Both the position numbers and the translations under genes were made by a program. A model generated the notes under the pieces. That model was not told the origin of the DNA. It did not search any database and saw nothing but the letters and a program-made list of their open reading frames with translations. Positions 708-50,449 of a stretch of DNA of 64,000 nucleotides are shown in pieces (within the stretch, counting starts at the first letter, position 1; each line of letters begins with the position of its first letter). Source of the DNA: Penicillium oxalicum (lineage: Eukaryota > Ascomycota > Eurotiomycetes > Eurotiales > Aspergillaceae). The stretch is from the NCBI RefSeq assembly GCF_001723175.1, contig NC_064652.1, positions 3,348,001-3,412,000 of the forward strand, written 5' to 3'.

Positions 708-1950
708 TTATTGCACCCAAGAACTCTCCCTCTTCAGTTGGCTCACTGCCTCCTTTGCCTTTGCCACCCAGGTTTCAACACCAGTAACAGCACCAAAAGG
801 CGAGTTCTTCTGCTCCATCAGGAACGACAAAACTTCAGCTGGACTGAAAAATTGGTCTGGCACCTTGGAAGCAAAGTTGTCGGCAAGTCTCTCAATCGTC
901 TCATCACCGAATTGTCTCTTGGATTGCTTGTGGCCGGGCGTCTGCTTGAAGACTGTCTGAAAAAGTTGAGCGGACATTTTCCTATCGGCAAGCTAAAAAT
1001 GCACCTTTTTATCCGTACGGCCAGGCCGAATGAGTGCTTCGTCCAAATGTTCGATGTGGTTGGTTGTCATAATGAGCACCCGACCTTCTTGAGATGACGC
1101 ACCATCAAGAACATTAAGAAGACCAGAGGGGGTGACTCTAGAGCCTGAATTGCTTTCTTGGTCTGCATCTGCACCGTCCCTTCGTCCCATCCCAGCGGCG
1201 TCAACGTCCTCCAGGAGAACGATACAGTGCGGTGGAAGCTCAGCAAATAGCTTCATCAGCTTGCTGTCCGAAATACCGGACAATTGTAGCGTATAAATAT
1301 CAAGTTCAAATTCCCCCGCCAGTGAAAGACTGAAGCTGGATTTTCCGGTTCCACGAGGTCTGTATAAAAGGTAGCCTCGTTGGTAGGGTATTCCATGGTC
1401 GGCGTACCACTTTTGAGTACGCTCATCCAGAAAGTCCTTCCCATCTCCCAAAGGTCATCCTGAACTTGTTTGTCCATGATAACTGTAGAGAGTGGTCGAA
1501 TTGGTCTTAACCTGGTCTTCTTCCAGTCCCCTTCGCGGTGCTCAAAGACAGCAATATTTTTGTCAATATTATTAAGATATTTTCCTCGGTACTCTTCAAC
1601 AAGCTCTTTGAGTATGTTTGGATAAAGGCCAATGGAGGAGATGTAGATATCTTCTCGATGGTCTTTGACAGCGCAGTGAAGTATGAGCAGATATCCCTTG
1701 TACCAGAAAGGGAAAGACCCGTCCCAGGGAGAAAAAGTTAAAGTCTTTTTCTTTGCTTGATTTTGGATGCTCGCGATCGTCTAGGACAGCATCCTTGAGG
1801 TTTTTTGACCTTTCTTGTCCAGATTTGACTACTGTCTTAAATTACACATATCCGTCCAGAATGACTTGGGCATTTTCGTGCGCCTCGCCATGTACGTCTA
1901 AGCGCTCCCGAAGCATCCTTTTCCATTCGACATCCATGTCACCTTGAAGA
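708..1950 (-). pseudogene. BCS1-like AAA ATPase pseudogene
   Basis: The family is mitochondrial-type BCS1 chaperone-like AAA ATPases, which are greatly expanded in filamentous fungi. Reading leftwards from about 1760, the frames give the BCS1 N-terminal domain (FWYKGYLLILHC, then VFEHREGDWKKTRLRPIRPL), a Walker A region (YRPRGTGKSS), Walker B (CIVLLEDVDAAG), the sensor region (TTNHIEHLDEALIRPGR) and the usual C-terminal helical part ending with ESSWVQ at 708. The gene is broken. One frameshift lies near 1455, where a base is missing just before KDFLDERTQKWY. Another lies near 1760. An in-frame TAG lies near 990 after DKKVHF, and a stop lies near 1840. The Walker A loop is also changed from the usual GPPGTGKS to RPRGTGKS. 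No start is assigned because the extreme N-terminus is not recognisable. The family call is firm and the pseudogene status is well supported unless several sequencing errors coincide. Confidence 0.88.
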
Positions 1951-2319
1951 GATAATAGCAGCGTTAGTCTTGCATGTTAGATTAGCACTTTGCCTGTGAA
2001 GCATCCACTGCGAGAAGGGGGGAAGGCGAGCAACCCCACCATGTGAATTGCTGACTCACCACCTAATTGAAAACGAAGTGGCATCTTTAGGCTCATTGGG
2101 CACCCGTAATGTTGGCAACCCCACCAGCATAAGCCATAAAGTGTCTTAATTCGGATCAGCAAGGGGAGCTCAAGGCAGATGCAATCGGTTGATGCTGATC
2201 TTTAGTCGCTCAGACACGCCTGGTCACTGGCGGAGTTGCCGCTTGCACGGTGGGCGCCCTGCAAGCCATGTTTCAGCACTCCATCAAACTTAGGACACTT
2301 CAAGGTGATTGCCATGCCG

Positions 2320-2500
2320 TACAGTAGATTTCGAAAACAGGTTACCCCTAAGACACACACGCTTTCTTTCCCAGCGCCCCACTCCGACCGCACTAGACTG
2401 TATTAGATCAGGAACAGTCCCACCATTTTTGCTTCTAAGTATCTCTGGTGGATTACTACAATTACAGTACTGTAATTGCAAGTTCCGGCATTAGGCAGAA
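2320..2500 (+). repeat. Left 181-bp terminal inverted repeat
   Basis: It starts TACAGTAGATTTCGAAAACA and ends ATTAGGCAGAA. Its reverse complement matches 5793-5973 with a single difference (GATCTAAT against GACCTAAT). Similarity stops abruptly at both edges. It contains the internal palindrome ATTACAGTACTGTAAT. Confidence 0.9.
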
Positions 2501-2810
2501 TTCGAGGGAGATTACCCCTCAGATGCTTCCGCTTCTTGGGTCGTACCGTTTGAAACCATACCCATCCGGAGTACAGTAAGACATAGCGTATACAAGCCTT
2601 TTCTAATAATAGATCCTTGTCTCTCCTCATGTCTCCTAAATGGTCTTAACACTAAATTTTTCGATTGTTTTCCATAGTCCAGATCCACTAGACTACAGTC
2701 ACGATGTCTGTTTCAATTATAGTATTGAACCCTAATTTGAGACTCTCATTGATAAGATCTTGGATTATCATCCTGCAGTAGAGTCTATTTTTTTCCTACG
2801 AGCCAAATTG

Positions 2811-5618
2811 CTAATGCTCGCCAGTCTCGTCCCAATGAGTAACCATATTGTCCCAAGTAATAAAATCCAAGATCCTCTGCCTATTTACTAAGCTCGAGCC
2901 CGATTCCATCACGTCTTCGAACATACGCTGCAGTTTGCGCCTCGCAAAATGGCACATCATTGCGACATCATTCACAGCCAGATCCTGCCCATCTTCCCGA
3001 ACAGCCCAAACATTCCCTATCTCACTATTCCAGTACATTGGCGCCCAGCCCCACTCGTCTTTGGATGCATCAGTTTCCATCATCAAGAACGCAACATTAG
3101 GATTACTGTCTGCCGTCATGCCCCCTTCCCATCCGGGCGGGTCATCGCAGAACTCAGTGTCCGGGTCCTTCCAAAGCCGTATAGCCATACCAAGGCAGAC
3201 AGATATCGGTGAGAGGGATCCGCTGCCCAGGGATATCTGGTTTGCGCGGGTGACATTGACAGAAACAAAAGGCTCTGAAGCATGAAGCTTTATTTCGCCG
3301 TGGCAGCAGATCTTCACGCGCGCGGACCGTTGTTGGGGCGCGGTGTAGCAGATCCGGGACGCTTTCCCTGATATTCGTGCTTCGGTAGCTTATTAAGTAA
3401 TCCACTAGATGTCGGAAGTCGGCTAGTGTTATATCGGTATAGTCCTCATGGGGAACTTCTCGTATGGCAATCATAGGACCGCGATATTCATGTGAGAGGG
3501 TGGACGCACAGGACGCTCTCAAAGAAGCTAATATACTTCTATTTGTGGCTGACCCGTCCTTCAAACAGGCCTCACGATGTATCAAAGAGACACAGTATCC
3601 TTCTTTGTATGGGGCCCAGCTTGCAAATCCGGCGCCCAGGTTTCGACATCGTACCGGGTTATGTTCGATGTGCATTATCCCTTTAACCGGTTGATCAGTT
3701 CCAAGGTAGGGATACGGATCAACCTGTGTCCATTTGATACCGTCCTCGTCGTGTCGACGTCGACATGGGACCCATATCAAAGATGGATTCTCTCTCTCAG
3801 CTGGAAAGTATATGGCCCTTTTGTGTCCCGGAGAGGGCCTATCAAGTTGAGTAGCGAACTGTTTGCAGAGAAGGCTATGTGAGCGAAAGTCACTTCTCTC
3901 GCAGTCTTTGGAGCAATAGTAAGTGCTTTGACACTGTGCACATTGAATCCCTGGGCTCGTGTTACACATCGCACAACAATATTGAGGTTCGAAATTCTCG
4001 AGTGGGCGATATCGCGATTTTGTAGTAGGGACAATTCCTTCACTATTTGAGTCATTATTGGTTAGTCATTAATCGCTCTCCAAAATAAAAATATGTAAAC
4101 TCACAGAATGAGCAATTCATTATGCTTGATCTTTCTTTTCTTCTAAAAAGCCGCACATCTGCGTTCTTGCTGCCATCTTCAAGAGTAAAGCGTGAAAAAT
4201 TTGACACCATGCCGGATTGCATGATATTGGCAGCGAGCCCTCTCTGTCCGGGGTTGTTCAAATCATTGAGAAGTCCTCGAATGCGAACTACGAGGCTTTT
4301 CTCTAACCGCTCGACGGCGGCTTCTATAGCACCTGAATTTGAGCCCGGTACAGCCCAGGCAGGATAACAAACACCATGCCTTCCACGTGTGGCAATTGGA
4401 CTCGGTAGCGAGCGAAGAAAGGTTTCACAGAGCAAGCAAGTCTTCTTACTGCATCCAAAGTAGTCTAATGTAGGCCTAAGCGCGCATCTCTCCTCGTAAT
4501 GCGTCACTAGCTGCATCTCAGCATGCAGAGAAAATTTCTCTGCACAGGCTTTTTCAAACCTCTTGCTCAAGGAATCAAGTATCCTCATCACGTGTTCAGG
4601 AATGGAGCCCAGCCCAAGTCGTTCCCATGCCTTGGATATTCTAAGCCTGTATTTGGCGTCCAGTGCTGTCTTCGATTTAATGGAAACTAGTAAGATCCTG
4701 CATTTCCGCAACTGTGGCTCATGGGCGGCTATTGATCCCAATAATCGGCAGTCGACCAGCGGCCTAGCGATAAAGTTCAACTTGCTCCAGAGTCTCAAGC
4801 CACCCTGGATCCCAAAGGAGTCCGACAACAACTGTCGGACTTGAGTTAAGTTGAGACAGTTGTAAGCTTGTTGAACTATTAAGGATCTAGATTTGACGGC
4901 TTCCTTATCAGTATCAAATTTGAGTGTAAGATCCGTCATGGTCGTCCAAGCTTTCATTGCAGCCTCCTGCCCAAACCATGGCTGAGAACTCCAGTCAGGA
5001 CAATTATGGAGGGTTTGTAGAGATTCTCGGAAATCCTCAACCCAATGATCGATCCGGCGGGACATATAGTCTATCACCTTCAGCTCGAAATCGGTTGGGG
5101 AGTTTGCAGTTGTATTCATCCCTATTTCAGCCGTCAAGTCATCAAAAACTCAAAATTTCACGACCGAGAATTGAAGTATGCTACATACCTCCAGTTCTAC
5201 CATCTAGATATTCCTCCAACATCTTGCAGTAACCCATAATCTCACTATCTTCATCCGAAAGAAAACCATCGTTTCTTGTAATATCAACCTCAACTCCGTC
5301 TTCTCCTTCCCGTATCGCCGTTGCAGTAACTCCATCCCATCCCTTACATGGCGACAGCAGCTGCGCAATACAGTCCAGGAATTTCTGGCGAGTAGAATCT
5401 CGAGTACCTGACAAAATCATATTCTTCTCTGTCTCGTAGTCTGTCTCGTGATCGCTCGAGTCATCTATATGACTGCCGTATTCCAGATTGTGCTCAGCTT
5501 CAGGTAGCTCCTCATGGTTTCGGCTTTTTGTGAGAATATAGAGGATGTGAGCTGCCCAAACGACACGTGCAAGGCATTCTTCCTGCGGGTAAATTGACGT
5601 TCTGTGCGGTCCAGCCAT
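2811..5618 (-). CDS. OTT_1508-like deaminase with C-terminal MYND finger (one frameshift)
   Basis: Three exons are proposed: 5618-5189, 5121-4101 and 4042-2811. Intron 1 has a GTATGT donor. Intron 2 uses GTTTAC with branch CTAAC; the stronger nearby GTGAGT donor would lose the MYND frame. Exon 2 carries the deaminase-type zinc ligands, HAEMQL and further on CSKKTCLLC, as in the fungal OTT_1508-like deaminase family (cytidine-deaminase fold, substrate unknown). Exon 3 opens with a complete MYND zinc finger (CAMC, CAQC, YYCSKDC, final H and C), a protein-interaction module. The long C-terminal region has no function I can name. A one-base frameshift occurs near 3317-3325 in a GCGCGCG run: the frame from HRAPTTVR continues one base over as ICCHGEIKLHASEP. 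It could be real or a sequencing slip. The gene is the sole cargo of the flanking TIRs. Confidence 0.8.
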
Positions 5619-5792
5619 CGTGCGAGGTGAGTGACTGTTTTCGGGAAAAGAAGAAAGAAGTCAGGGTTCGGTGCTCAAAGTCAATAATGGGCATTGACGG
5701 CCAGCTCAGTGAGGGGTAGTACTGTAAGAGTAGGAGTGTGGAGGGACAAAGAGGTACGGGTGTATCTGAGTTCCTTATATCCCCCCCCGGAT

Positions 5793-5973
5793 TTCTGCCT
5801 AATGCCGGAACTTGCAATTACAGTACTGTAATTGTAGTAATCCACCAGAGATACTTAGAAGCAAAAATGGTGGGACTGTTCCTGACCTAATACAGTCTAG
5901 TGCGGTCGGAGTGGGGCGCTGGGAAAGAAAGCGTGTGTGTCTTAGGGGTAACCTGTTTTCGAAATCTACTGTA
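5793..5973 (-). repeat. Right 181-bp terminal inverted repeat
   Basis: This is the inverted partner of 2320-2500. It lies 175 bp upstream of the start codon of the deaminase-MYND gene, so it could carry promoter sequence for that gene. The outer edge is CTACTGTA followed by TCTTAACG. Confidence 0.9.
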
Positions 5974-6317
5974 TCTTAACGTTGGATAAGAAGTTTTCAA
6001 CACCTTCAGCGGCGCCTAAATCTCTCTCACCCCAAAATTGGGGTCTTGGTGGAAGCAGTAGCGCTAACTATCCTTAAGCGCTAACTCGAACCACAAAGAA
6101 CTGCGGAAAAGCGAAAAGGGAAGGTAAGATAGGGTTGGAGATTTTGGCGCTTAGGTGCCGGCCAATACGATTCAATGCATCTTTAATAAAAGCGCTCTTG
6201 AACCGACTGTAACTTCTCTGTATTTCGAAAATCTCCCAGAGATGGCGATACGTCTTCCAAACGTACAACACTAGGTGCAAGCATGATATCGGACGATTAC
6301 ACACTCAGCCCAGAACA

Positions 6318-7098: not shown

Positions 7099-7941
7099 CT
7101 AGTAAAACACTGAGGAGTAAACAACCTGCATCATCAAGTATTCCAAATGATACTGGTCGAGAATATCCGGGACCAGCTCTAACCAATCAGGCTTTAACTG
7201 GCAATAAAGCGTCGAATTGCAGAAATCCCAATATTCTGGGTACCAGCCTGAAAGATTCCAGTCAATCAATGTGATTTTGAAGTCGCTGCTGCCATCTTCT
7301 TGGAGTCCATTGCGTTCAACTATTATATTCTTTGGTTGAAGATCTCCGTGCGTGAATACAATCTTGTGGCCTTTGAGGGTTCGATCAACCATTCCTCTCA
7401 AAAGACGAATGTAGTGGGGCGACTCCTTCTGACCAAGCCTTGTCAGGATACCATGATTCATTTGTTCTTGATTATCGAATGGCCCCGAAATTGTTAGATT
7501 GTCGTCAGGAGAAGAGAGTACGCCATCAGTATAAGGCTGGCGTTCCAAGTTTCCAAAATACCCTTAAGCTAGAATCTGCCGTAGTTCATCAAGCGCGCCT
7601 TTAATCCGCCTACTAATTGTCTTTTTTTCCACTGACGTAAGCAATAGTAGCAACTTTTAGAGGTCCATGCCTGGGATATAATCCATAATGATATATCTCT
7701 TTTGAGTTTCCCGATCGAGAAAGTTGTCGTGAACCGTCGGCACCGGAACGTTGCTATTGTGTGCGACGAATTTCATGTTCTCTGCTTCTAGGGGTGGAAT
7801 AGAATAGCCAAACTTGACTGCGAAGCGTTCCCGGACCCGAACGACTTTGATAGCGTTTGTCCGAATACTCAACACATCCGGCGAGGCTTCGATCTCCGCA
7901 ACTGTTGGTAGGTCGATTCTTTCGGGCGCAAGTATGGCCAT
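7099..7941 (-). pseudogene. APH-like phosphotransferase pseudogene
   Basis: This is a fungal member of the aminoglycoside-phosphotransferase/choline-kinase-like superfamily; the natural substrate of this branch is unknown. The start is taken at MAILAPERIDLP (7941). One continuous frame gives the N-lobe (VRERFAVKFG), the hinge YIIMDYIPGMDL, the catalytic loop FTHGDLQPKNI with the HGD and Asn residues, and the metal-binding ITLIDWNLSGWYPEYWD. Two in-frame TAA codons interrupt it: one directly after GMDL (about 7658), probably a former CAA, and one near 7565 before GYFGNLERQPY. The reading frame is otherwise preserved. No splice sites remove both stops, because conserved family sequence lies between them. 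It is divergently arranged with the intact APH-like gene starting at 8301. Confidence 0.8.
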
Positions 7942-8300
7942 ACTGCCAAATTTGTGTATGGATCTGACACGTATAGAACGAGGCAGCTGAGTGTGAGATT
8001 GCGAAGACAAGGGGGCACTGAAAGACTCAACTCGAGGGCAGTGTGCGTTGGCGGAGAGTCTGAAAGACCGTATTATCAGACGCCGCGCGTGAAACCATGC
8101 GAACCAACTCAAAAGGGGTTGGCCGGGAGAATTGTTCACCCGAGCCGACAGTGTGGCAGTTGTACAACTCCCTATTTCCACCCCTGTCAGACAACATTAT
8201 GTCGAGCCATCTTGTCTTACCGGAATAGTCAAGCCAGCTTCGACTTATTCAGCCTTCAAACGAGGCCAAGGCCTGGTTCGAATGTGTCAGTGTCAGGGGC

Positions 8301-9894
8301 ATGGATTCGCCTAGCACTCTGAAACCTATTCGCTTGCTTCGTGGTGAAATTACCTACACCGCAGCGAAGGACAAAGATGCTAACATTCTCCATGAGTTGG
8401 GCTATAGGGATCGAAAAATCCGATTTTTTACTCATCTTCACCGGAATAGAAAGCTTATAAAAGCCATCGCTGCGCACCATCTCGGCCTTGCTTCTACAGA
8501 TGTGTGCCAGGTTGCGGACGTGGACGAATGGATCCATGGGAGCTTCAATGTTTGCATACGCGTTGATGTTGGTGGTCAAGAAGAAAATTTCGCCAAGCAG
8601 TTGATGATTCGATTTCCCTTGCCATATCGGATTGGCGAAGATTACTGTTCAGGGAATGCGGATGAGAAGGTCCGTTGCGAAGCCGGAACATACGCATGGC
8701 TTGAAGAGAATTGCGCAACTGTTCCTATTCCTCAACTCTATGGCTTTGGACTGTCCAATGGTCAGACCGTATGTTGCCTTGATATTCATTTTCATGGATT
8801 TTCGCTTACGCCCTCAGTTCACGTTTCTCGACAATTTGCCTATCTTCACCCGTACCATTGAGCGTCTCCGTCGTTGGCTCTTGTCTTTGCTAGGCTACCC
8901 AACTCCATCCCGGTACATTCAGCATCCCACCAATGATCAGCTTGTGTTTGACACACCGTATCTTTTAATTGAGTACATCAATCCGTCGCGAGGCAAGGTG
9001 CTCTCTGAAACCTGGGAAGAAGGTCGCCATGACCCGGAATTGCGCAGCAACCTCTTCCGTGGTCTCTCCCGAATTATACTGACTTTGGCTCACACTCCAT
9101 TGCCAAAGATCGGATCCTTCGTTTTGGATGAAAAGGGATATCTGAGCTTGAGCAACCGCCCTCTCACTCTCGAAATCCAACAATTGGAAAATGAACATAT
9201 TCCGGTTGATATACCACGAGATGTGACCCATACAACAGTTGACTCTTATCTGAGTGACATTATTGCAATCCATGAAAGCCGTCTACGCCATCAGGCTAAC
9301 GCGGTCAACAGCCTGGAAGATGGTTTCTATCAGACAGCTGCATTGATGGTTATGAAAAGCATATGGTCTTCTTTTTTTCGCCGAAGGTTCCGTCGAGGGC
9401 CATTTTTTCTTAACCTCACGGATCTAAATCAGACCAACATTTTTGTGGATGACCGTTGGAACATCAAATGCCTCATCGATCTTGAGTGGGCTTGCTCCCA
9501 CCCGGTAGAGATGATTCATCCTCCATACTGGCTAACTAACCAGGCTATTGATTTAGTCAACCCTGATGAATACAAGAATCTTCATGCCGAGTTTATGGCA
9601 GCTTTCGCGAAGGAGGAACTTCAGATCAAGCCGCCGATCAGTCTCCACTCTATTTTGCAGCAGGGTTGGGACAAAGGGACGTTCTGGTGTGCCTTAGCAC
9701 TTAGCAGCCCCACGGCGTTGTTCAGCATATTCTATGATCACATTCAACCGATGTTCACTAAGACGCACGACGACCCATCATTTTGGCGGATTACTATGCC
9801 TTACTGGACGTTCAATACGTTTGCGTTCATCGAGCAAAGAGTAAAGGACAAAGAGCAATATGATATCGCTTTGCGAGAAGCATTTCAGTCCTGA
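8301..9894 (+). CDS. APH-like phosphotransferase family protein, 514 aa
   Basis: Two exons are proposed, 8301-8768 and 8818-9894. The 49-nt intron has a GTATGT donor and a CCCTCAG acceptor, and the lengths sum to a whole frame of 514 codons. The fold is the fungal APH-like kinase group. The N-lobe includes FAKQLMIRFPLP and the hinge LLIEYINPSRG. The catalytic loop is unusual: LTDLNQTNIFVD in place of HGDxxxxN, so Asp and Asn are kept but His-Gly is Leu-Thr. The metal-binding segment is CLIDLEWACSHPVEM. As I recall it, LTD in place of HGD is common in this fungal subgroup, so the protein may still be active or may have become a pseudokinase. The substrate is unknown. It is divergent from the broken paralogue at 7099-7941. 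Confidence 0.82.
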
Positions 9895-37439: not shown

Positions 37440-38035
37440 AATCCAAACGTCGAAAACAGCCCATCAAAGATAAACTCCGCGCGTCCGAGATCAGGTCGAC
37501 CACCGACGATGTGGATCGATAAGCCAAATTGGGCCAACCTGGGCCGCTGTGTTTTAGGGCACCAAGAGACGTTTCTGATACCGTTCGTCACGAAAATTTT
37601 ATGCAACAGCAGCAGAGGCTGGAAAGTTCACAGTCCAAAGACGTACCAATCCCTAACCTCTGGAAGCTGTTCTTTCATTTATATCGACTTCAGGGGAGAG
37701 CAATCGGTTTCACAGCCTCCTGTAGCTTAGATGACCGTCTCACTCGTCTTACATTCGCAGAAAGACAGACAAGAGCCGGATCAGCTCGGGATAAGCGGAC
37801 CACGAGACGTAGCCGTGAGGACATACACTGCTTAGCAAGGAACAAATGTTATCAACGACAGTTTAAATGCTCAATTCAAGCTGACCCGTGATATTACGCT
37901 CACCTATCGTCTAGATCTTGACCAGATACATGTGGATCAAAACCTGGAATTTTCTATTGAGGGAAAATTTGTGATTGGTATTGCATGTCGCTTTGTAGGT
38001 GACATTAGTCGATGGGCAAGGGACGTAAGTAGTTA
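37440..38035 (+). pseudogene. Decayed coding region with a kinase-like N-terminal motif
   Basis: The frame near 37460-37545 contains SARPRSGRPPTMWIDKPNWA, closely matching HPKRVRPPTIWCEDKPNW at the start of the kinase-like pseudogene at 52.8 kb. Further along, another frame reads FKLTRDITLTYRLDLDQIHV and EGKFVIGIACRFVGDISRWA, ending at a GTAAGT donor near 38030. The two halves may belong to different genes. I do not recognise the second. No intact frame joins them. Confidence 0.35.
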
Positions 38036-38927
38036 ACTACGGTTTACGTTCCGAACATAATACGGCAAGTCTTTATAGATTAAGCTCAAACTTTACCTTC
38101 TATTATTTCCCGTAGATTGTGTGATTCAACCCCACAGTAAGGTATGTAAAGAAAACGCGCCGTAAAATGCCAGCTCTGTGAACCCAGAATCCCCAAGAAT
38201 CCCACTCATCCCTACTACCTAACGAGAAACAATCAGCGAACCAACGTATTTTTTATACCTGTGGCAAGAGCTACCGTTAAAATTTTCTGCCTGATGGAAA
38301 TTTATCTGAGCTGGTGCTTCTTGCTGATGTAATTCCGGTGCTAGTAAAATGGCGGCCGTTTCCTGCGTCGCGCTAACCGTCTCAAAGAGTAACCCCCATC
38401 CCGATGACATGAAATGCCCTACGTGGTGAAACACCCGCGAGGTATCTGACAAGTCCAGCATATTTATCCTCTAACAACCAGTCAATTCTTATTTGTGGAT
38501 AGAGGATACCTCAATTACATGATTCTTGCTATCACTGCTTTTGCAAAAGCTATTAAATACCACGTCCCAATGCTGAAGTACAAGACCTAATGTATTACCT
38601 GGAAATCTGCCGTTGACGGCTGGGACGCCAAGACCACCCACCATGACATCAGAGATAAGTGTGAGGGATAAAATTGCGCAAGTGTAATGTCGGGTATCAT
38701 CTTTCCAGGCCATCAAAATGATGTGAGTCACAACAATGTGGAGTTGAGCGAAACCCGTGGCAGCGGAGAGGTACTAAGATTACAAATTCATGAAGTTGAA
38801 TACACGGGAAAATAACAATGGTGTAAGTTGGTGTATGAAATATATAACTGCGGCTAAATATGGAAGTAGACCCACACCAAGTATGTAATTATTACGGAAG
38901 ATTCACTCGCTATGCTCAGGCCATCGA

Positions 38928-41900
38928 TCAGGTGACGACCACGGCCGTCCAGAGAAACCACTGCGCGTGGCAAGACAAGGCTTGCGTGCGATTGTCCTTT
39001 ACTTCGGGTCTTAACTGGCTATTGACCATAGCCGTGAATCGCTCAGTCGGCACCCCAGTCGCGAATCCGAAGATCAAAACACGTCCAGACGGGCAGCCAA
39101 GCACCACCGCTATTCCGGACTTTCCTACAGCCGAACTGGTCGGGCGATAGGTGGGAGGCAGCCAGAGCCAGTTCTGTGAACGCCGCGTGATCCAGAGTCT
39201 ATCGAAACTGATACCGTAGCCTTGATATTCGGGGGGTTGCGGCAGTTGATTTGCACTAGGTGATTGGAGGTCTAACGCGGACACTTTAGTCGGAGGCCTA
39301 GGATTAGGTGTTGCTGAGCCACGAAGGGGAAAAATCCCAACGCTAGTGTGAAGAGAGGAGTTGGTGGTGTCGAAGGAAAGAATATTCACATAATTGCCAA
39401 CATTTAGGGTTTGCAGGCAGGCCCCGGTGTGCGCATCCCAGATCTTGATCATCTTGTCCAAAGACCCGGACGCGACGCGACTGCTGTCGGGGGAGAACAC
39501 CACTGAGTTGACATCATGATTATGGCCCTCCAGCGTCTGCAGGCAGTCCCCAGTGTGCGCATCCCAGATCTTGATCGCCCTGTCGGCCGACCCGGACGCG
39601 ACGCGGCTGCTGTCGTAGGAGAACACCACTGAGCTGACATCGTCATTATGGCCCTCCAGCGTCTGCAGGCAGTCCCCAGTGTGCGCATCCCAGATCTTGA
39701 TCGCCCTGTCGGCCGACCCGGACGCGACGCGGCTGCTGTCGGGGGAGAACACCACTAAGGTGACCCTGCTACCATGGCCCTCCAGCGTCTGCAAGCAGGC
39801 CCCGGTGTGCGCATCCCAGATCTTGATCATCTTGTCCCTAGACCCGGACGCGATGAGGCTGCTGTCCGAGGAGAACACCACTGATTTGACATCGTCATTA
39901 TGGCCCGCCAGCGTCTGCAGGCAGGCCCCGGTGTGCGCATCCCAGATCTTGATCGTCTTGTCGTCCGACCCGGACGCGAGCCGGCTGCTCTTGGGCGAGA
40001 ACACCACTGAGTTGACATCGTCATTATGGCCCTCCAGCGTCTGCAGGCAGGCCCCGGTGTGCGCATCCCAGATCTTGATCGTCTTGTCGTCCGACCCGGA
40101 CGCGAGCCGACTGCTGTTGGGCGAGAACACCACTGAGGTGACTATCCGATCATGGCCCTTCAGCGTCTGCAAGCAGGCCCCGGTGTGCGCATCCCAGATC
40201 TTGATCGTCTTGTCGTAAGACCCGGACGCGACGCGGTTGCTGTCGGGGGAGAACACCACTGAGCTGACATCATGATTATGGCCCTCCAGCGTCTGCAGGC
40301 AGTCCCCAGTGTGCGCATCCCAGATCTTGATCGCCCTGTCGGCCGACCCGGACGCGACGCGGCTGCTGTCGGGGGAGAACACCACTGAGGTGACCCTGCT
40401 ACCATGGCCCTCCAGTGTCTGCAGGCAGGCCCCGGTGTGCGCATCCCAGGTCTTGATCGTCTTGTCATAAGATCCGGACGCGACGCGACTGCTGTCCGAG
40501 GAGAACACCACTGAGCTGACCAGCTGCCATGGCCCTTCAGCGTCTGCAGGCAGGCCCCGGTGTGCGCATCCCAGATCTTGATCGTCCTGTCGGCCGACCC
40601 GGACGCGACCCGGCTGCTATCGGGGGAGAACACCACTGAGTTGACCAAGAAGTCATGGCCCTCCAGCGTCTGCAAGCAGGCCCCGGTGTGCGCATCCCAG
40701 TCAGTTCCCATTATCGGCATCATCGTGACATCTTTGGGCCGCTCGTGCCAGAACAACTTCTTAATCAAACTCCGCGATGGACTAAATACAAGCCCACAAC
40801 CGTACGCCTGTAGGGGGCTGTTCTCGATCGCCATTCGGTGGTACAGAATGAATCGATATGTATCTTGGACGAGGATGCTCAGTTTGGCTGCTGTCGGTCG
40901 TTCCTATCGCGGTGTTAGAGCAGTTCCAATTCCCGAAATGAACACATACCAATACGAGATCCTTCAGTCTCTGTATCGACATAATTCCATCCGATATGCT
41001 TCGCAGGAGGCTCAGTGCCTCGAGCCAGTAGAGACACTGCGTTCGAAGAAACGTGTCGACAGTACCACCCTCCTTGAGATCTTCGTATGATCCGCTTTCT
41101 CGTAGATGGTCGACCCAGTAGACACACGAGTATCGTGCGACTGCAAGCGGATCCGGATTAGGTGGCTGGGCTTGCTTGATAGGAGTACCCAGGGCTCCTA
41201 GGCTATACATATCCCGCCGTAACGCCTTCTTCACGACCTGGAGGGACTGCGTGAACATTCGGCGATGGGCAACCGTAGGGCCAGCCGAGAAGATACTCTG
41301 CGCGCCCTTTCCGATTAGATAGTCCTTGGCAGACTGATGCACAAAGTAGATGCTTTCGTCGCGGACCGTGAGGAACGAGCCGGTCCTCTTGATCATCGTC
41401 ACAAGACTTTTCGCCTTTCCGGCGATCTCGTCAGGGAGTCCCGACACTGCCCCTAGCTCCAGTAGCTGAAGCGGCCGATAGGCCAGGGTAGCAGCTGAGA
41501 GGACCAAGTGGCAAAACTTTCGGGTTCGAGGCGCTTCCTGTTCGATCTGGTCTATCATTCGCGCATACATATCATCCAACCCTGTCGGCACTTCATCCAC
41601 CACTTGCTTCACGTCCCAGCTATCAACGCCCCGAAGTTCCTGGACGACGAGCGCCACCCAGAGAAACGTTCCTTCGGCTTTCTCCTCGAGGGTCTGCTGA
41701 ACATATTCCAGCAAAGTATCATCCTCCTCCAGAGACTCAAGTTCCGCTAACCGGTTCGAGATGTAAGCTCCGATGGCCAGAGACACAGCTTCGGCGTTTT
41801 CCTGCAGTTCCAGGCTCAGTATTGACTGCGAGTCGTCAAGCCTTATGCGCTGATTAACGTGGTTCCGGCTGGATATGATCCATTTGACGTGCGGTAATCC

Positions 41901-42703
41901 CCTTGTCTCCTGGAGAATAAGCTGTAACAGTTTATCTTGGTCCTGTACGCATTCGTCCAGAGCATCAACTATAATGTAGATCTTGTCCGTGGTACAGGCG
42001 CGCAAGATACATAAGAACATATTGCACAATGCAGCCCATGCTTCCGCACCCCCAAATTGTGGCTCCCCATTTTGATTGAACCTTTTCTGTATAAGAGAGA
42101 GAAATGATGGTTGTGTGTCCACAAGCATATAGATCAACCCACGTAAGACAGCATGAGCGTTACTCAGCTTAGGAACAGTGGCTTGACAGAAAAAGAAAGA
42201 CAGGAATGTCTTGGCTTGGGAATCTGCTATTTCTATGGTCGGGTTAAGCTCGTCGATGATGCCACAGAGTAGCATTGTCTTGCCTTTACCAGGATCCCCC
42301 TTGATCCAAAGGACCTGACTGTCGTTACTGTTGTTACCGTCGCGCCAACACTGGAACTGGTGGTGGTGGAGGATCCATTCATAGGACTCTTTGAGGGGCG
42401 CCCCTCTTGTCTGGTGGATGTTTGTCTTGACGTCGCGCGGATCCGTCACTGCGAAGTATTCGCGGCAGCGATCCCTGCTTTGTCGGTCTTGGTCTTGCGA
42501 GCTTTCATGTCAGACGGAGTACCGCCAGGAGGAAAACTTGATGTTCAGACGTACCTCCGATGTTTTGAATGAAGGTGCTAAGATGGCACCAAGTTAGTAA
42601 TACTCGTCAACGCGGTACAATCATCAATATCGACGTACGAATGTGTCGCAGTGCCTTCGAATTGGACATTTCCCCCATTGTTGTCCCACTGGTGCCTCCT
42701 CAT
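38928..42703 (-). CDS. NACHT-WD40 NLR, left copy (about 10 WD40 repeats, one frameshift)
   Basis: NACHT-WD40 proteins are fungal NOD-like receptors that oligomerise on ligand sensing and trigger incompatibility or cell death. The start is placed at ATGAGGAGGCAC (42703), opening a short exon with NNGGNVQFEGTATHS. Its joint to the NACHT exon is uncertain; a GTACGT donor fits. The NACHT exon has Walker A LWIKGDPGKGKTMLL, Walker B IYIIVDALDECV and VKWIISSRN. A 46-nt intron (40904-40949, GTATGT...CGATAG) precedes the repeat exon. The 42-residue WD40 units are nearly identical (GHxxxVxSVVFSPDSSRVASG). In unit 2 one base is missing (near 40520), shifting the frame. After the repeats comes a C-terminal domain ending WTAVVVT. 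The NACHT exon is identical over 555 codons to the right copy. Confidence 0.85.
39408..40700 (-). repeat. 126-bp tandem array encoding about 10 WD40 units
   Basis: The units encode GH-led 42-residue blades ending IKIWDAHTGACLQTLE. Differences are concentrated in the residues after GH (DFLVNS, GSRVTS, NHDVSS, DRIVTS, NDDVNS, NDDVKS and others), the positions expected on the ligand-facing surface. The array is longer than the one in the inverted partner. Confidence 0.88.
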
Positions 42704-43249
42704 CGAGATGACAAATCAGGTGATATTGGCTAGATCTGCTGTATAGTGAGTTGAGCGTATCTAGCAGTCGCACTGTAGTGCGCCACTACCAGCGGAGAAA
42801 TTCGGTACGCGGCAGAATTTGAGTCCTCGCTACAAGATCAACCAGAAATGTTTCTGCCTTGCACAGGATGAAAGGGCTAAGCCGTTAGGCTGCAAGCTAC
42901 TGCGGGTAGCAGGGCTGACAGGAGACACCATCGCTCTTGTATGCTGTTGAAGCAGGTGTTGCCATCTGGTCCCGAGTTGCAGCCGCGCCAGCGGCAAGCC
43001 ATGCAGATATCGGCCCGTCGCCTGTACGTCGCCCGCCAATCACTGCCGCCCGCCCCTTCACCTTGGCCTTCCCCTTGGGCAATCGGGTGGAATAGCGCTC
43101 ATGCAGTGTGATGAATTGCACAGCGGGGCGTTGTATTGCCACGTCTCGTCCCCCACACCTGCATCCTCTCCTGTGGGGCGATCTTTCGACGTGAGGTTGA
43201 TTTATTTTCTGGCGCAGAGAGCACGAACTGCTTTCTAGCTGCGGCTGAG

Positions 43250-45290
43250 GTGCCTAACGCTCTTGCGCTTCCGGACACCTTGACTATTACAGATAGCAAG
43301 AGAGACATAAAGCTTACTTGGATCACATAAAAGATAATTCTCCGGTTTCATTTTACCTGCTCAGAGAACATCTGCGGTGGATATCTGCCTTTATGCACAC
43401 GTCCATAGGCTCTTATAGAGTACTCCTACGTTGCCACAGGTATCCAAAAATTACATGAGCCTAATTGGCGGTCCAAGCTGATTGTCATTGCGCTAATTTG
43501 CTTTTTGAATGCCAAGTGATCTGAGATGGCGTCTCAAGTATCGGATAGGGCACCCTCAAATGTCTCGTTACCTGCTATCTTGTATCTACCCCCGCGCCAT
43601 GCTTAGAAACATTGGGTAAAAAGGACAAATTTCCTATACGCCGAGTCCTTAGTAAGTCTACCGTTATGTTGGACGGGTGATGTTTCTGCTTCCATAATAC
43701 TTTCTGTTATACTTTTTAAGTCTTCATCGCATTCCCCAGCCTTTTTGATCTCAATATATTTTTACGAATCACAGCGCGCCTTGAAAGGTGAAAGCACCAC
43801 TCGAGTCTTAGTATTTAGGAGCACTGAACAACCTAGCGTGTGTGTGAGATGTGAGAACTGCGGTTGTGGACAGAAACCAATGCCTTCGTTATCAATACTA
43901 TAGGACACGTAGCGCAATGCTTTGACATTAACTCTGGGCCCTGTGATCCCGACTGACCATCCTTGGCCTAGCTCAAGGCTAGCCTCTTCAGGATTAGCGC
44001 ACCGTGAGATATTAACTTACGTGATCCCACATCCAGGGCGGAACGAAAAACCTTCATTTCCTCATTTCCTCGGGGGATCGCGTAGACCCCGAACTCCACG
44101 TGACCATTGACTCAAACCAAGGCAGAATGCGGGGCTCCACCAAAATCAACCGTTTAACTTGCAGTTGGTGAGAATTGCCAAACGGTAACTAAGAAGATTG
44201 CAGGCTCTATATTCCACAGTAGTTCAAATGTGGTTGAAAGTCAAAAATTGAGCTCTTTCTCTCAACAAAACCGCTCTATCAATTTTGCTCGGCATTGTTT
44301 TCGTCTGCTCAGCCCAGAGCGTTCAGATGCTCTTGGTGTTCAACGGTCGAAAAAACTCCCTGGCTGACTATGTTTAAGTTAGTTACTCTGGCGGTTGCCG
44401 GGCTGTCGTTGAAAGGCTACAGTAATGATTTTAAGAGTCATAATTTTGTTTTCATAATAACTAAACAATGTGTAACTTACATCTAGTTAAAAATTATGCT
44501 CATATCGCATGATTCAACCCCTCTTTGGAAGCTCACCGGTCAATTTAGGCTAATTGCTGACGTAGATTCATCCTTGCCAAAAGTCCCGCAAAGACAAGCA
44601 TGACTGTACACCCGCAGCAATTATTTTGATGCTGCTGGAAACACCAACGGTTATCACGTCTACGGACCGACAACCCAGCATATTTTTGACCTCTTTGACA
44701 ATGCTGCGAAGCTTCGCATAGAGATTCAATGACGTTTGGTATGCTCAGGATTGTGGTGGAATCGTTAGATCTGGCTGGTGGAATTTGATTTCAAAGAACC
44801 TGTCCACCAATAACTAATCGCTGACTAATTTAGGTAATTACAGAGCCGGGCGTTTCTATCATATAATTTAAGACCGAGTAAGTTATCCTTCCTTAACCCG
44901 GCCTTGGATGGATCACAATAGGTACTGGACGGCCAAAACTTCAATGCCCGCCCTGAAGAAGGGCAATGCTAGCGATGATTCTAGCTCCCTACTAGCAGCT
45001 ACACAACCTTCTCCTTCGATATTTCATTTGCATGGTGGCCAGCACGAGACTTTTTGCTCGGTAATGAATTTACCTCGAGGATTTTCGAGACGTCCTCAAT
45101 TTGGGCTTATGCGCATTTCCAGTCCAGCAAAGCTAAGTTTAAGCCCAAATGGGCATAGCGTGACCAGAATGCTCAGTCCTCTATTATTAATTCACGAAAC
45201 AAAGCAACTCGCAGGCATGAACGTCGGATTGTCTTCAATACATATCTGAATCCCATGAACTGCTCCGAACTGCAGTCAGCTGGTCAACGC
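43250..45290. other. Spacer DNA; possible secreted-protein remnant
   Basis: Mostly non-coding. At about 44370 a frame starts MFKLVTLAVAGLSLKGYS, which looks like a signal peptide. Around 44610-44730 another reads NYFDAAGNTNGYHVYGPTTQ, suggestive of the mature part of a small secreted protein, with stops between. This is a weak call. Confidence 0.35.
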
Positions 45291-45294
45291 AGCG

Positions 45295-46184
45295 CTATCT
45301 TCTTTTGCTTGCATCAGATGCGACCGTCATTACATAGTGACCTTGCTGATCCTGCCCTATTTTCTGGACAGTAGACTCCGTGGTGTTGAAGATCATGTTT
45401 TCATTCTGCTTGCATTAACAACACGATGACACGATGATAGACTAGAGAGAGGAGAATCAGATCGACCTCCACTTACTCTTTGCTCCAATAGATTCTTGAC
45501 AGCCGTGTTCATTACTGGATCCCGCTCCGATGCAGAGCGCAATTCCTTCATGACTTTGAGAAGCTTATCCATTTCCTCCCCGCCCGCCGCTTCTTCGTCG
45601 CTCGCAGACGGAGTGTAAATTTGGTACAGTGCGTCAATGTGGTCATTGATGTCCTTGACTAGCTTCTCGAGATGCTTCTCGTCGTAAATAGCGAACTTGA
45701 AGAGTCTAGGAACTGACATCTTGTTTCTGCGCTCGTGCACGATTTTTTGCATTGTCTCATGGAGGTAACGGTGCATAGCACTCCACTTAAAGCCATCCTG
45801 GCCGAACGGCTTCATTTCGTTCGCTCTCACTTCAGGGTCATCCTCAGACTTTCCTTTGCGTTCATTATGACAGATTTTCATGGACTCTTCGAAAAAAGTC
45901 GCCAAGATCTGAAATGTCCGTATAGCCTGATTCTCTTGCTCCTCGTCGAGCTGGAATAAGCCCGAGCTTTTCAGCGACTCCTCGTCTTCGATATTCGAGC
46001 CTGTCAGACCGACAGCCTGGCCCCAGCGCGTTAGTCTCAGCTGCGCACTGCCAAGCTTCACGATCAGAGACTGAAGTCGCGGGGCCGCCTTTCTGGCAAT
46101 GTAGATGTAGTCAAACCAGGTAATAATCGTGGTAAAAAGACCGGCTAGCCCAGATGCCGCACTAATAACTTCTACACCCGTCAT
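45295..46184 (-). CDS. HeLo-domain protein with candidate C-terminal amyloid motif, 272 aa
   Basis: HeLo domains are membrane-targeting cell-death effectors of the HET-S type, normally activated by an NLR through a shared amyloid motif. Exon 1 (46184-45477) starts MTGVEVISAASGLAGLFTTI; the hydrophobic N-terminal helix and the following LGSAQLRLTRWGQAVGL match the HeLo pattern. The rest is helical and charged through DPVMNTAVKNLLEQR. A 71-nt intron (GTAAGT donor, GCAG acceptor; CAAG three bases earlier also fits) leads to a short exon, 45405-45295, encoding a segment with NTTESTVQKIGQDQQG. Its Asn, Thr, Val, Gly spacing recalls HET-s-related amyloid motifs. The exon sum is a whole frame. It is divergent from the right NLR, whose ATG is about 680 bp away. 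Seen: domain and exons. Inferred: the amyloid role and the pairing. Confidence 0.72.
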
Positions 46185-46866
46185 CACGGTAGAAGTGCGC
46201 CTGTCTGTGTGTGAATGTATAGACTGGTTGATGATGATAGGCCTGGGGGAGCTCGGTATGGATTTTGCGCATAATTCTTGGGGTAATGTGGTCTTATGTA
46301 TCAAAGAGCGAGGTCACCAAATTCACTGGTGCTTGCGGCTGGAAAGCGGTCCGTGCGATTCGCTTGTTGGAAAATGAGGCATTGTCACCTGCAATGGAAA
46401 CGCTGCCCGGAGCGATCTTCAACCGCGGGGACGCGACGTGGCAGTACGATGCGGCGCAGTACAATCTGTCGCACTGCATGAGCGCTGTCCCCCACCCGCT
46501 TGCCCTAAGGTAGGGGGCGGGCGCCAGCGATTGGTGGGCGACGTGCAGCAGCGGCGCGATATCTGCAATGCTTGCCGCTGGCGCTATGTTACAACATCGG
46601 AGCCAGTGACGGATCCAATAGCGGTTTTCGCACATGCAAGACCCATGGAGTCAGCCCTGCTATCCGCATTGGCTTTCAGCCTGATGACCCCGCTTTTCAT
46701 ACAAGTGCGAGAGACAGACGGAAAGAGGTCTCTGATCGGTCTGGTAATGACGGGTCGAATTCTATCACCTACCGAATTTCTCCGCTGTTAGCGGCGCACT
46801 GCCGTGCGACTGCCAGATACGCTCAACTCACTACACGGCGGACTTAGCCAGGGTCAGTTGACTTGT

Positions 46867-49800
46867 CATGTCGATAAGGAGGCACCAGTGGGACAACAAT
46901 GGGGGAAATGTCCAATTCGAAGGCACTGCGACACATTCGTACGTCGATATTGATGATTGTACCGCGTTGACGAGTATTACTAACTTGGTGCCATCTTAGC
47001 ACCTTCATTCAAAACATCGGAGGTACGTCTGAACATCAAGTTTTCCTCCTGGCGGTACTCCGTCTGACATGAAAGCTCGCAAGACCAAGACCGACAAAGC
47101 AGGGATCGCTGCCGCGAATACTTCGCAGTGACGGATCCGCGCGACGTCAAGACAAACATCCACCAGACAAGAGGGGCGCCCCTCAAAGAGTCCTATGAAT
47201 GGATCCTCCACCACCACCAGTTCCAGTGTTGGCGCGACGGTAACAACAGTAACGACAGTCAGGTCCTTTGGATCAAGGGGGATCCTGGTAAAGGCAAGAC
47301 AATGCTACTCTGTGGCATCATCGACGAGCTTAACCCGACCATAGAAATAGCAGATTCCCAAGCCAAGACATTCCTGTCTTTCTTTTTCTGTCAAGCCACT
47401 GTTCCTAAGCTGAGTAACGCTCATGCTGTCTTACGTGGGTTGATCTATATGCTTGTGGACACACAACCATCATTTCTCTCTCTTATACAGAAAAGGTTCA
47501 ATCAAAATGGGGAGCCACAATTTGGGGGTGCGGAAGCATGGGCTGCATTGTGCAATATGTTCTTATGTATCTTGCGCGCCTGTACCACGGACAAGATCTA
47601 CATTATAGTTGATGCTCTGGACGAATGCGTACAGGACCAAGATAAACTGTTACAGCTTATTCTCCAGGAGACAAGGGGATTACCGCACGTCAAATGGATC
47701 ATATCCAGCCGGAACCACGTTAATCAGCGCATAAGGCTTGACGACTCGCAGTCAATACTGAGCCTGGAACTGCAGGAAAACGCCGAAGCTGTGTCTCTGG
47801 CCATCGGAGCTTACATCTCGAACCGGTTAGCGGAACTTGAGTCTCTGGAGGAGGATGATACTTTGCTGGAATATGTTCAGCAGACCCTCGAGGAGAAAGC
47901 CGAAGGAACGTTTCTCTGGGTGGCGCTCGTCGTCCAGGAACTTCGGGGCGTTGATAGCTGGGACGTGAAGCAAGTGGTGGATGAAGTGCCGACAGGGTTG
48001 GATGATATGTATGCGCGAATGATAGACCAGATCGAACAGGAAGCGCCTCGAACCCGAAAGTTTTGCCACTTGGTCCTCTCAGCTGCTACCCTGGCCTATC
48101 GGCCGCTTCAGCTACTGGAGCTAGGGGCAGTGTCGGGACTCCCTGACGAGATCGCCGGAAAGGCGAAAAGTCTTGTGACGATGATCAAGAGGACCGGCTC
48201 GTTCCTCACGGTCCGCGACGAAAGCATCTACTTTGTGCATCAGTCTGCCAAGGACTATCTAATCGGAAAGGGCGCGCAGAGTATCTTCTCGGCTGGCCCT
48301 ACGGTTGCCCATCGCCGAATGTTCACGCAGTCCCTCCAGGTCGTGAAGAAGGCGTTACGGCGGGATATGTATAGCCTAGGAGCCCTGGGTACTCCTATCA
48401 AGCAAGCCCAGCCACCTAATCCGGATCCGCTTGCAGTCGCACGATACTCGTGTGTCTACTGGGTCGACCATCTACGAGAAAGCGGATCATACGAAGATCT
48501 CAAGGAGGGTGGTACTGTCGACACGTTTCTTCGAACGCAGTGTCTCTACTGGCTCGAGGCACTGAGCCTCCTGCGAAGCATATCGGATGGAATTATGTCG
48601 ATACAGAGACTGAAGGATCTCGTATTGGTATGTGTTCATTTCGGGAATTGGAACTGCTCTAACACCGCGATAGGAACGACCGACAGCAGCCAAACTGAGC
48701 ATCCTCGTCCAAGATACATATCGATTCATTCTGTACCACCGAATGGCGATCGAGAACAGCCCCCTACAGGCGTACGGTTGTGGGCTTGTATTTAGTCCAT
48801 CGCGGAGTTTGATTAAGAAGTTGTTCTGGCACGAGCGGCCCAAAGATGTCACGATGATGCCGCCAATGGGAAATGACTGGGATGCGCACACCGGGGCATG
48901 CCTGCAGACGCTGGAGGGCCATGATAGCTATGTCAACTCAGTGGTGTTCTCCCCCGACGGCAGCCGCGTCGCGTCCGGGTCTTCGGATAACACGATCAAG
49001 ATCTGGGATGCGCACACCGGGGCCTGCCTGCAGACGCTAGAGGGCCATGGCGACTGGGTCAACTCAGTGGTGTTCTCCCCCGATAGCAGCCACGTCGCGT
49101 CCGGGTCGGAGGACGAGACGATCAAGATCTGGGATGCGCACACCGGGGCCTGCCTGCAGACGCTGGAGGGCCATGGCGACTGGGTCAACTCAGTGGTGTT
49201 CTCCCCAACGGCAGCCGCGTCGCGTCCGGGTCGGCCGACAGGGCGATCAAGATCTGGGATGCGCACACTGGGGACTGCCTGCAGACGCTGGAGGGCCATA
49301 ATCATGATGTCAACTCAGTGGTGTTCTCCCCCGACAGCAGTCGCGTCGCGTCCGGGTCTTTGGACAAGATGATCAAGATCTGGGATGCGCACACCGGGGC
49401 CTGCCTGCAAACCCTAAATGTTGGCAATTATGTGAATATTCTTTCCTTCGACACCACCAACTCCTCTCTTCACACTAGCGTTGGGATTTTTCCCCTTCGT
49501 GGCTCAGCAACACCTAATCCTAGGCCTCCGACTAAAGTGTCCGCGTTAGACCTCCAATCACCTAGTGCAAATCAACTGCCGCAACCCCCCGAATATCAAG
49601 GCTACGGTATCAGTTTCGATAGACTCTGGATCACGCGGCGTTCACAGAACTGGCTCTGGCTGCCTCCCACCTATCGCCCGACCAGTTCGGCTGTAGGAAA
49701 GTCCGGAATAGCGGTGGTGCTTGGCTGCCCGTCTGGACGTGTTTTGATCTTCGGATTCGCGACTGGGGGTGCCGACTGAGCGATTCACGGCTATGGTCAA

Positions 49801-49898
49801 TAGCCAGTTAAGACCCGAAGTAAAGGACAATCGCACCTAGCCCTTGTCTTGCCACGCACAGTGATTTCTTCTGGACGACCGCGGTTATCACCTGATCG
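46867..49898 (+). CDS. NACHT-WD40 NLR, right copy (about 4 WD40 repeats, frameshifted)
   Basis: Same architecture as the left copy: short first exon from ATGTCGATAAGG (46867), a NACHT exon identical over 555 codons (47128-48627 and on), a 46-nt intron at 48628-48673, then the repeat exon. Only four WD40 units are present (GHDSYVNS, GHGDWVNS twice, GHNHDVNS). The third has a one-base loss near 49205 (VVFSP then out of frame). A second shift is an extra G in a G-run near 49767, which ends the C-terminal domain early at GFATGGAD; the left copy has one G fewer and reads on. The homologous stop would lie near 49898. Unless these are assembly errors in repeats and homopolymers, the C-terminal part is not expressed as a full receptor. 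Confidence 0.82.
48880..49420 (+). repeat. 126-bp tandem array encoding about 4 WD40 units
   Basis: The short counterpart of the array at 39408-40700. The last unit (GHNHDVNS to KMIKIWDAHTG) is identical in both arrays; the first units differ. This shows loss or gain of units after the NLR duplication. Confidence 0.88.
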
Positions 49899-50449
49899 AC
49901 GGCCCGAGCCTAGCGAGGTAATCTTCCGTAATTATTACATACTTAATGTGGGTCTACTCTATATATAGCGGCCGTAGTATATTTCATACACGAATTTACA
50001 CCATTGTTATTTCCCCGTGTATTCAACTTCACCAATTTGTAATCTTGGTACCTCTACGCTGCCAAGAGTTTCGCTCAACTCAACATTGTCGTAACCTACA
50101 TCATTTTAGTGGCGTGAAAAGATGATGGCCGCGATCGCAAAATTACACTCACGCTGAATTATTCTTCACACTCATCTCTGATGTCATGGTGGGTGGTCTT
50201 GGCGTCCCAGTCCTCCACGGCAGATTTCCTGGTAATACATTACGTCTTGTACTTCAGCACCGGGACATGGTATTTACTTTCTTTTGCAAAAGCAGTGATA
50301 GCAAGAATCCTCTAATTAAGGTATCCTCTATTCATAAATAACGATTGAATGGTTTCTAGAGGATAAACATGCTGCACTTGTCAGGTACCTCGCGGGTGTT
50401 TCACCACGCAGGGCATTTCATGTCACCGGGATGGGGGTTAAGAGGGTAT

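Follow-up and report, generated by a model that had tools for sequence, protein, structure and literature searches.

Pack-TYPE elements of plants are non-autonomous terminal inverted repeat (TIR) elements that contain gene sequence, mostly fragments with a parent gene. Among fungal elements, ToxTA (formerly ToxhAT) of wheat-pathogen fungi is 14 kb long and lies inside Starships, empty sites have been shown for it, and no autonomous relative is identified in the parts of the reports used here (PMC12506042, PMC9594970). For Pyrenophora tritici-repentis, the portion of the report used describes a Tc1/Mariner transduplication with 46 repeat-family members, 31 of which have both coding regions full length (PMC3538342). 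A hAT element with histone H3 in Pseudocercospora fijiensis is described, in the sections drawn upon, with 8-bp duplications, 20-bp arms and hundreds of copies, and a resident H3 gene is known in that species (PMC6710886). As far as these descriptions go, the Penicillium oxalicum element reported here is like ToxTA in being non-autonomous and likely Tc1/Mariner, with TA duplication, long inverted arms (74 bp in ToxTA), gene cargo and a transposase presumed to act from outside. It differs in its length of 3.65 kb, its deaminase-MYND cargo and the presence of a candidate autonomous relative in the same genome, and its movement is read from two copies in one genome rather than from empty sites. 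With the Pyrenophora family, as described in that portion, it shares an ORF that lies between Tc1/Mariner arms and is multiplied along with them (PMC3538342), but here the copy number is two, the interior lacks a transposase and the cargo differs among the relatives. The likeness to the Pseudocercospora hAT element, on the sections cited, is that of a gene amplified by a TIR element and later inactivated by repeat-induced point mutation (RIP) (PMC6710886).

The element occupies positions 2320–5973 of the window, the 64,000-nucleotide stretch of contig C3 that was analysed, and spans 3,654 bp counting the TA at each end. Its left terminal inverted repeat (2320–2500, plus strand) and right terminal inverted repeat (5793–5973, minus strand) are each 181 bp long including the outer TA and differ by one mismatch, at arm position 88; a longer pairing of 189 bp, reaching to 2508 on the left and 5785 on the right, contains four differences in total. 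The outer ends read TA/CAGTAG and CTACTG/TA, so that the arms and termini are as the original prediction had given them. A 20-bp perfect palindrome is found within the left arm at 2459–2478 and again within the right arm at 5815–5834. A chance inverted repeat was rejected on the length of the arms and the existence of a second full copy of the whole element. The CAGT-type termini within the TIRs and the TA at both ends, in both copies, are those of Tc1/mariner elements. The predicted lack of a transposase held up as well: tblastn with the family transposase and accessory protein (described below) at E up to 0.01 returned no match inside the element, and no DDE transposase was present in the four of its 19 listed ORFs that were scanned against Pfam. 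Because no transposase match lies inside, the element is at most a non-autonomous member of the Tc1/mariner group. A Starship was also considered and rejected, there being no DUF3435 captain in the four scanned ORFs of 19, TA at the ends and a length of only 3.65 kb.

The genome searched comprises 30,766,980 bases in 17 contigs, and the repeat counts obtained from it are lower bounds. A search of this genome with the arm, proposed in the original prediction, recovered a second full copy with the same cargo at C6:39626–43281 on the minus strand, 94% identical to the window copy. When the element was submitted together with 1 kb of sequence from either flank (a query of 5654 bases, in which the element itself occupies 1001–4654), the C6 match covered 1001–4655. 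The homology of the two copies thus ends at the ends of the arms, the flanks are unrelated, and TA is present on both ends of both copies. On this sequence evidence the element is mobile and has moved, since a second full copy stands in unrelated flanks with homology ending at the arm ends. The prediction of a non-autonomous, TA-flanked TIR element carrying a deaminase-MYND gene is therefore supported, the second copy showing movement.

Elements with related ends were sought by a pattern search, which returned 20 places as compared with seven for the reversed pattern used as a control. Fourteen of the 20 places were inspected, the other six all having three mismatches; of those inspected, L041 contains no element and one falls within L036 and is not an end. 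L010 came from another search. Seven two-ended elements were recognised (the window element, its C6 copy, a relative on C3, L035, L036, L038 and L040), together with four places at which a single end is clear (L037, L039, L009 and L010); no left end was located for L037 or L039. Six of the seven two-ended elements contain a gene or a long open frame, of five kinds, so the suggestion that copies with other cargo might exist is answered by elements whose ends are related and not identical. Kinship of the ends was assessed by comparing the first 95 bases of the left arm of the window element with 300 dinucleotide shuffles. Leaving aside the ends of its own copies, the left arm scored above all 300 for each of the 13 family ends, and with TACAGT omitted it did so for eight of the 13, the other five being matched by one to five of 300. 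The scores without TACAGT were 10.4 SD for the left and 4.9 SD for the right end of the C3 relative, 6.5 for L036 left, 5.2 for L037, 6.7 for L039, 17.0 for L040, 13.7 for L010 and 13.2 for L009. Of the two control ends, from the distant Tc1 element L052, one was matched by 25 of 300 shuffles and the other by none (4.6 SD; 3.1 SD and four of 300 with the six bases omitted), and because this one control end beats all 300, the test does not cleanly separate the family from other Tc1 elements. Judged from sequence, the ends are related, and the window element is nearest to L040, L009 and L010. Its arm is identical to the arms of the C3 relative at 66 (left) and 59 (right) positions in about 95.

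The C3 relative (C3:3254202–3263978, 9.8 kb) lies 86 kb left of the window element and has arms identical at 75 of 89 positions with TA at both ends. It encodes an inward-reading transposase in an unbroken stop-to-stop frame of 396 residues, 326 from the first likely Met, which matches DDE_3 with 102.8 bits and has the D-83-D-34-E spacing of a Tc1-type DD34E enzyme. An autonomous relative had been a further expectation, and this element provides the one case of an unbroken transposase frame between related, not identical, ends. The sole PDB match of the protein is Sleeping Beauty transposase (E 0.00087), and POX_c04532 of Penicillium oxalicum (300 residues) is 100% identical to it over 76% of the query. 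From one end of the C3 relative reads inward an accessory gene in two adjacent frames, and an NLR-type gene is spread over three adjacent frames, with matches to NPHP3_N (119 bits), NACHT (30.4 bits) and WD40, a PigL_N match being below its cut-off. Within this relative, at C3:3256173–3258069, a nested element (L056) with identical 50-bp arms and a DDE_1 transposase frame was observed. The accessory gene stands opposite the transposase and faces it in the C3 relative, in L035 and partly in L039. Searching with the second half of the accessory protein yielded 221 homologs, many of about 455 residues, and among the best 120 of the 221 those that are named come from Penicillium save one from Lasiodiplodia and one from Aspergillus. 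Neither Pfam nor PDB returned a match for an alignment of 42 sequences, and no firm match came from the predicted fold. Weak matches to the C-terminal half of the accessory protein were seen at window 37565–38027 (36%), which adjoins duplicated WD40-type genes and near which no family end above 15 bits was found, and at L007 4678–4947 (33%), about 0.7 kb from the C6 copy. A large inverted duplication extends over 38390–50440 of the window, with arms at 40520–42846 and 46731–49057 (98%) and at 39053–39613 and 49208–49768 (100%); by eye, its frames show WD40-like repeats.

The remaining two-ended elements are shorter. L035 (C2:3580005–3585950, 5.9 kb), in which the right TA reads TG, has a transposase (67.6% identical) with three stops, accessory gene matches of 57% and 53%, and two protein-kinase frames, one above the cut-off at 35.0 bits and the other below it at 19.6 bits. 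In L036 (C3:2158110–2162759, 4.65 kb), 48 residues of a transposase remain inside one end, and there is an open frame of 779 residues that has acidic repeats and matches nothing in Pfam. In L038 (C5:1324093–1326649, 2.56 kb) there are P450 frames of 53.2 and 65.9 bits, whose closest relative in the genome, at C4:2587207–2588369, is 65–75% identical. L040 (locus positions 4356–6101, C6:242355–244100, 1.75 kb) contains no recognised gene; its ends resemble those of the window element, and the left one is degenerate, with agreement at 39 of the first 60 positions. L039 has a broken transposase and an accessory fragment behind its single end, L037 has accessory fragments in that position, and in L010 the accessory fragment is outside the end, so that this place is not a clean element. 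Further DDE_3 places occur on C1, on C4 and at C3:2185489 and C3:3998041. Some smaller repeats were noted at the single-ended places. L009 4367–4546 (C5:1331366) may be a miniature element in decay: an end of the family type (85% over 61 bp) is faced, at a distance of about 180 bp, by 40 bp in inverted orientation (82.5%). A different miniature element may be present at L010 4290–4588 (C4), where a 79-bp inverted repeat (87%) spans about 300 bp. In L037 (C3), the arms of a 740-bp inverted repeat (98.6%) at 3211–3950 and 7587–8325 flank the single family end at 7262, with an alpha/beta-hydrolase frame (Abhydrolase_3, 52.5 bits) between them.

The interior of the window element is taken up by one minus-strand gene with two introns (5188–5122 and 4104–4043). 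Exon 1 (5189–5618) was placed by ORF and splice-site reading and is 70% identical to the N-terminus of the homolog P0012. Exon 2 (4105–5121) is open through its deaminase part and disturbed in frame near its 3' end. The Pfam scan, which took in four of 19 listed ORFs, matched the region 4346–4528 to the OTT_1508 deaminase PF14441 (65.7 bits, cut-off 27) and the region 3865–3966 to the MYND finger PF01753 (31.4 bits, cut-off 22.7). The PF14441 match together with HxE (here HAE) and CxxC motifs identifies an OTT_1508-like deaminase domain, and H205, E207, C234 and C237, which we take to be the catalytic residues of the deaminase, are invariant across 33 aligned sequences (the query plus 32 of 68 homologs); P0031, a homolog outside this alignment, shows HAK rather than HAE. 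The exon 3 region (2811–4042) contains a MYND frame (3969–3154) and a C-terminal frame (3317–2811). The last part of exon 2 falls into three frames in the window copy (about 4,110–4,190) and runs in a single frame in P0001, which is 94% identical to the window copy in the deaminase exon. Likewise, P0067 and P0031 pass from the MYND-side part to the conserved C-terminal part in a single frame, whereas the window copy shifts near 3,320; the C6 copy, stops aside, retains a single frame there. With the splice sites unchanged, the joined exons of the window copy reach a stop after 570 residues and do not include the MYND finger, while deaminase and MYND share one reading frame in P0012 and P0067. 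The original prediction of a three-exon interior gene is thus borne out in its two introns and not in its completeness, given that the frame slips in this assembly near 4.15 kb and again near 3.32 kb. The frame changes may be sequencing or assembly errors. Read as they stand, the sequences make the cargo gene look defective in both copies, because the C6 copy is RIP-marked with extra stops and the window copy has the frame slips.

No donor gene for the cargo was found in the genome: apart from the element copies, of which there are two, the searches gave a distant paralogue on C1, which is 27% identical over a 159-column alignment, and the proposed capture of a host gene is accordingly not supported. 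Since none was found in this genome, either the capture is old or happened in a different genome, or the gene is the element's own. Pack-TYPE elements have a recognisable parent gene in the host genome, and in this genome only the element copies and the C1 paralogue were found; they also hold mostly fragments, whereas here a nearly whole gene with introns is present. Because the introns are kept, the cargo appears to have entered as DNA. It is conceivable, though improbable in our judgement, that the deaminase-MYND gene is a resident of the transposon lineage which aids transposition or counters silencing, the transposase having been lost; its close copies were found only within the window element and the sister copy, and it starts some 350 bp in from one end and is directed towards the interior, like the transposase and accessory genes of the C3 relative. 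Such residency sits poorly with the absence of the gene from every other family element examined, a tblastn search of 15 loci and the window having matched only the C6 copy and the C1 paralogue, and perhaps with the occurrence of homologs in Penicillium, Aspergillus and Blastomyces.

That the copies arose by segmental duplication or recombination, with arms that are parts of an unrelated repeat, we regard as very unlikely and reject, for although only two full copies exist and hence no transposition burst is apparent, their homology stops at the TA on both sides in unrelated flanks, and several other elements are framed by similar ends.

Strand bias is a feature of RIP, which is a premeiotic process. 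The alignment of the two copies has 3,658 columns, of which 206 differ; read from the window copy to the C6 copy, these comprise 153 C>T changes, 27 G>A changes and 26 others, a strand preference of about six to one. The C>T changes lie in CpA context in 146 of 153 cases and the G>A changes in TpG context in 24 of 27. For the C6 copy the composite RIP index comes to 0.37, compared with −0.47 for the window copy and −0.54 and −0.34 for the C6 flanks. Counted in the columns of the window-copy exon frames, the C6 copy has 22 extra in-frame stops, and the GT donor of its second intron is gone. By sequence, then, the C6 copy bears the mark of RIP; in the sections of the source used, CpA context in duplicated sequence is the RIP signature (PMC6710886). 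The same changes are strand-biased and confined to the element, and four residues of its deaminase are invariant in the alignment of 33, but their origin in that deaminase, which would have to edit DNA, rather than in RIP is hardly credible in view of this signature and of the HAK in P0031. Either RIP hit one copy only, or the copies came together later. Because RIP is premeiotic, the presence of one copy with its mark and one without it is relevant to sex in this fungus. The 26 other differences are 20 substituted and six indel columns, and as the copies differ at these besides the C>T and G>A changes, arm identity alone does not date the move, as the original prediction of recent mobility or gene conversion had it do.

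We therefore consider it probable that this carrier of a deaminase-MYND gene is a non-autonomous element of Tc1/mariner type which a related transposase moves in trans. The C3 transposase or a similar one is the candidate mover, the pairing being made only from end similarity. This enzyme, or one like it, would recognise a common outer sequence consisting of TACAGT, five variable bases and TCGAAAACAG, and would, acting in trans, excise the element and insert it at a TA. The cargo gene would have arrived as genomic DNA, in an ancestor or in another species, and would presumably be expressed. RIP would afterwards have ruined the C6 copy, and the window copy would have escaped RIP and decayed by small indels.

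Judged by titles and abstract openings among the open-licence papers that the searches listed, neither a deaminase-MYND cargo nor this Penicillium family is described; both may be new, with ToxTA, the Pyrenophora elements and the hAT elements with histone H3 as known precedents. The related elements with other genes hint at a shuttling of genes. A broader reading, which we offer tentatively and hold to be rather less likely than not to prove correct, is that this Penicillium Tc1/mariner lineage is a small-scale gene shuttle with a core of transposase and accessory protein and exchangeable cargo. The DD34E transposase and the accessory protein of about 455 residues, for which Pfam gave no match, would occupy opposite ends and be read towards the middle. 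Cargo such as an NLR-type gene, a kinase, a P450 or a deaminase-MYND protein would lie between the core genes or, in non-autonomous forms, fill the interior entirely. Discussion of cargo transport in fungi now centres on Starships. If this reading is true, a Tc1/mariner lineage whose related ends enclose genes of several kinds within one genome would represent a second, much smaller vehicle that could be tested at the bench, and ToxTA and the Pyrenophora elements would gain a common mechanism in which autonomous relatives move them in trans. If the shuttle is real, a tilt of its cargo to self-recognition and defence would give the Starships a cut-and-paste counterpart.
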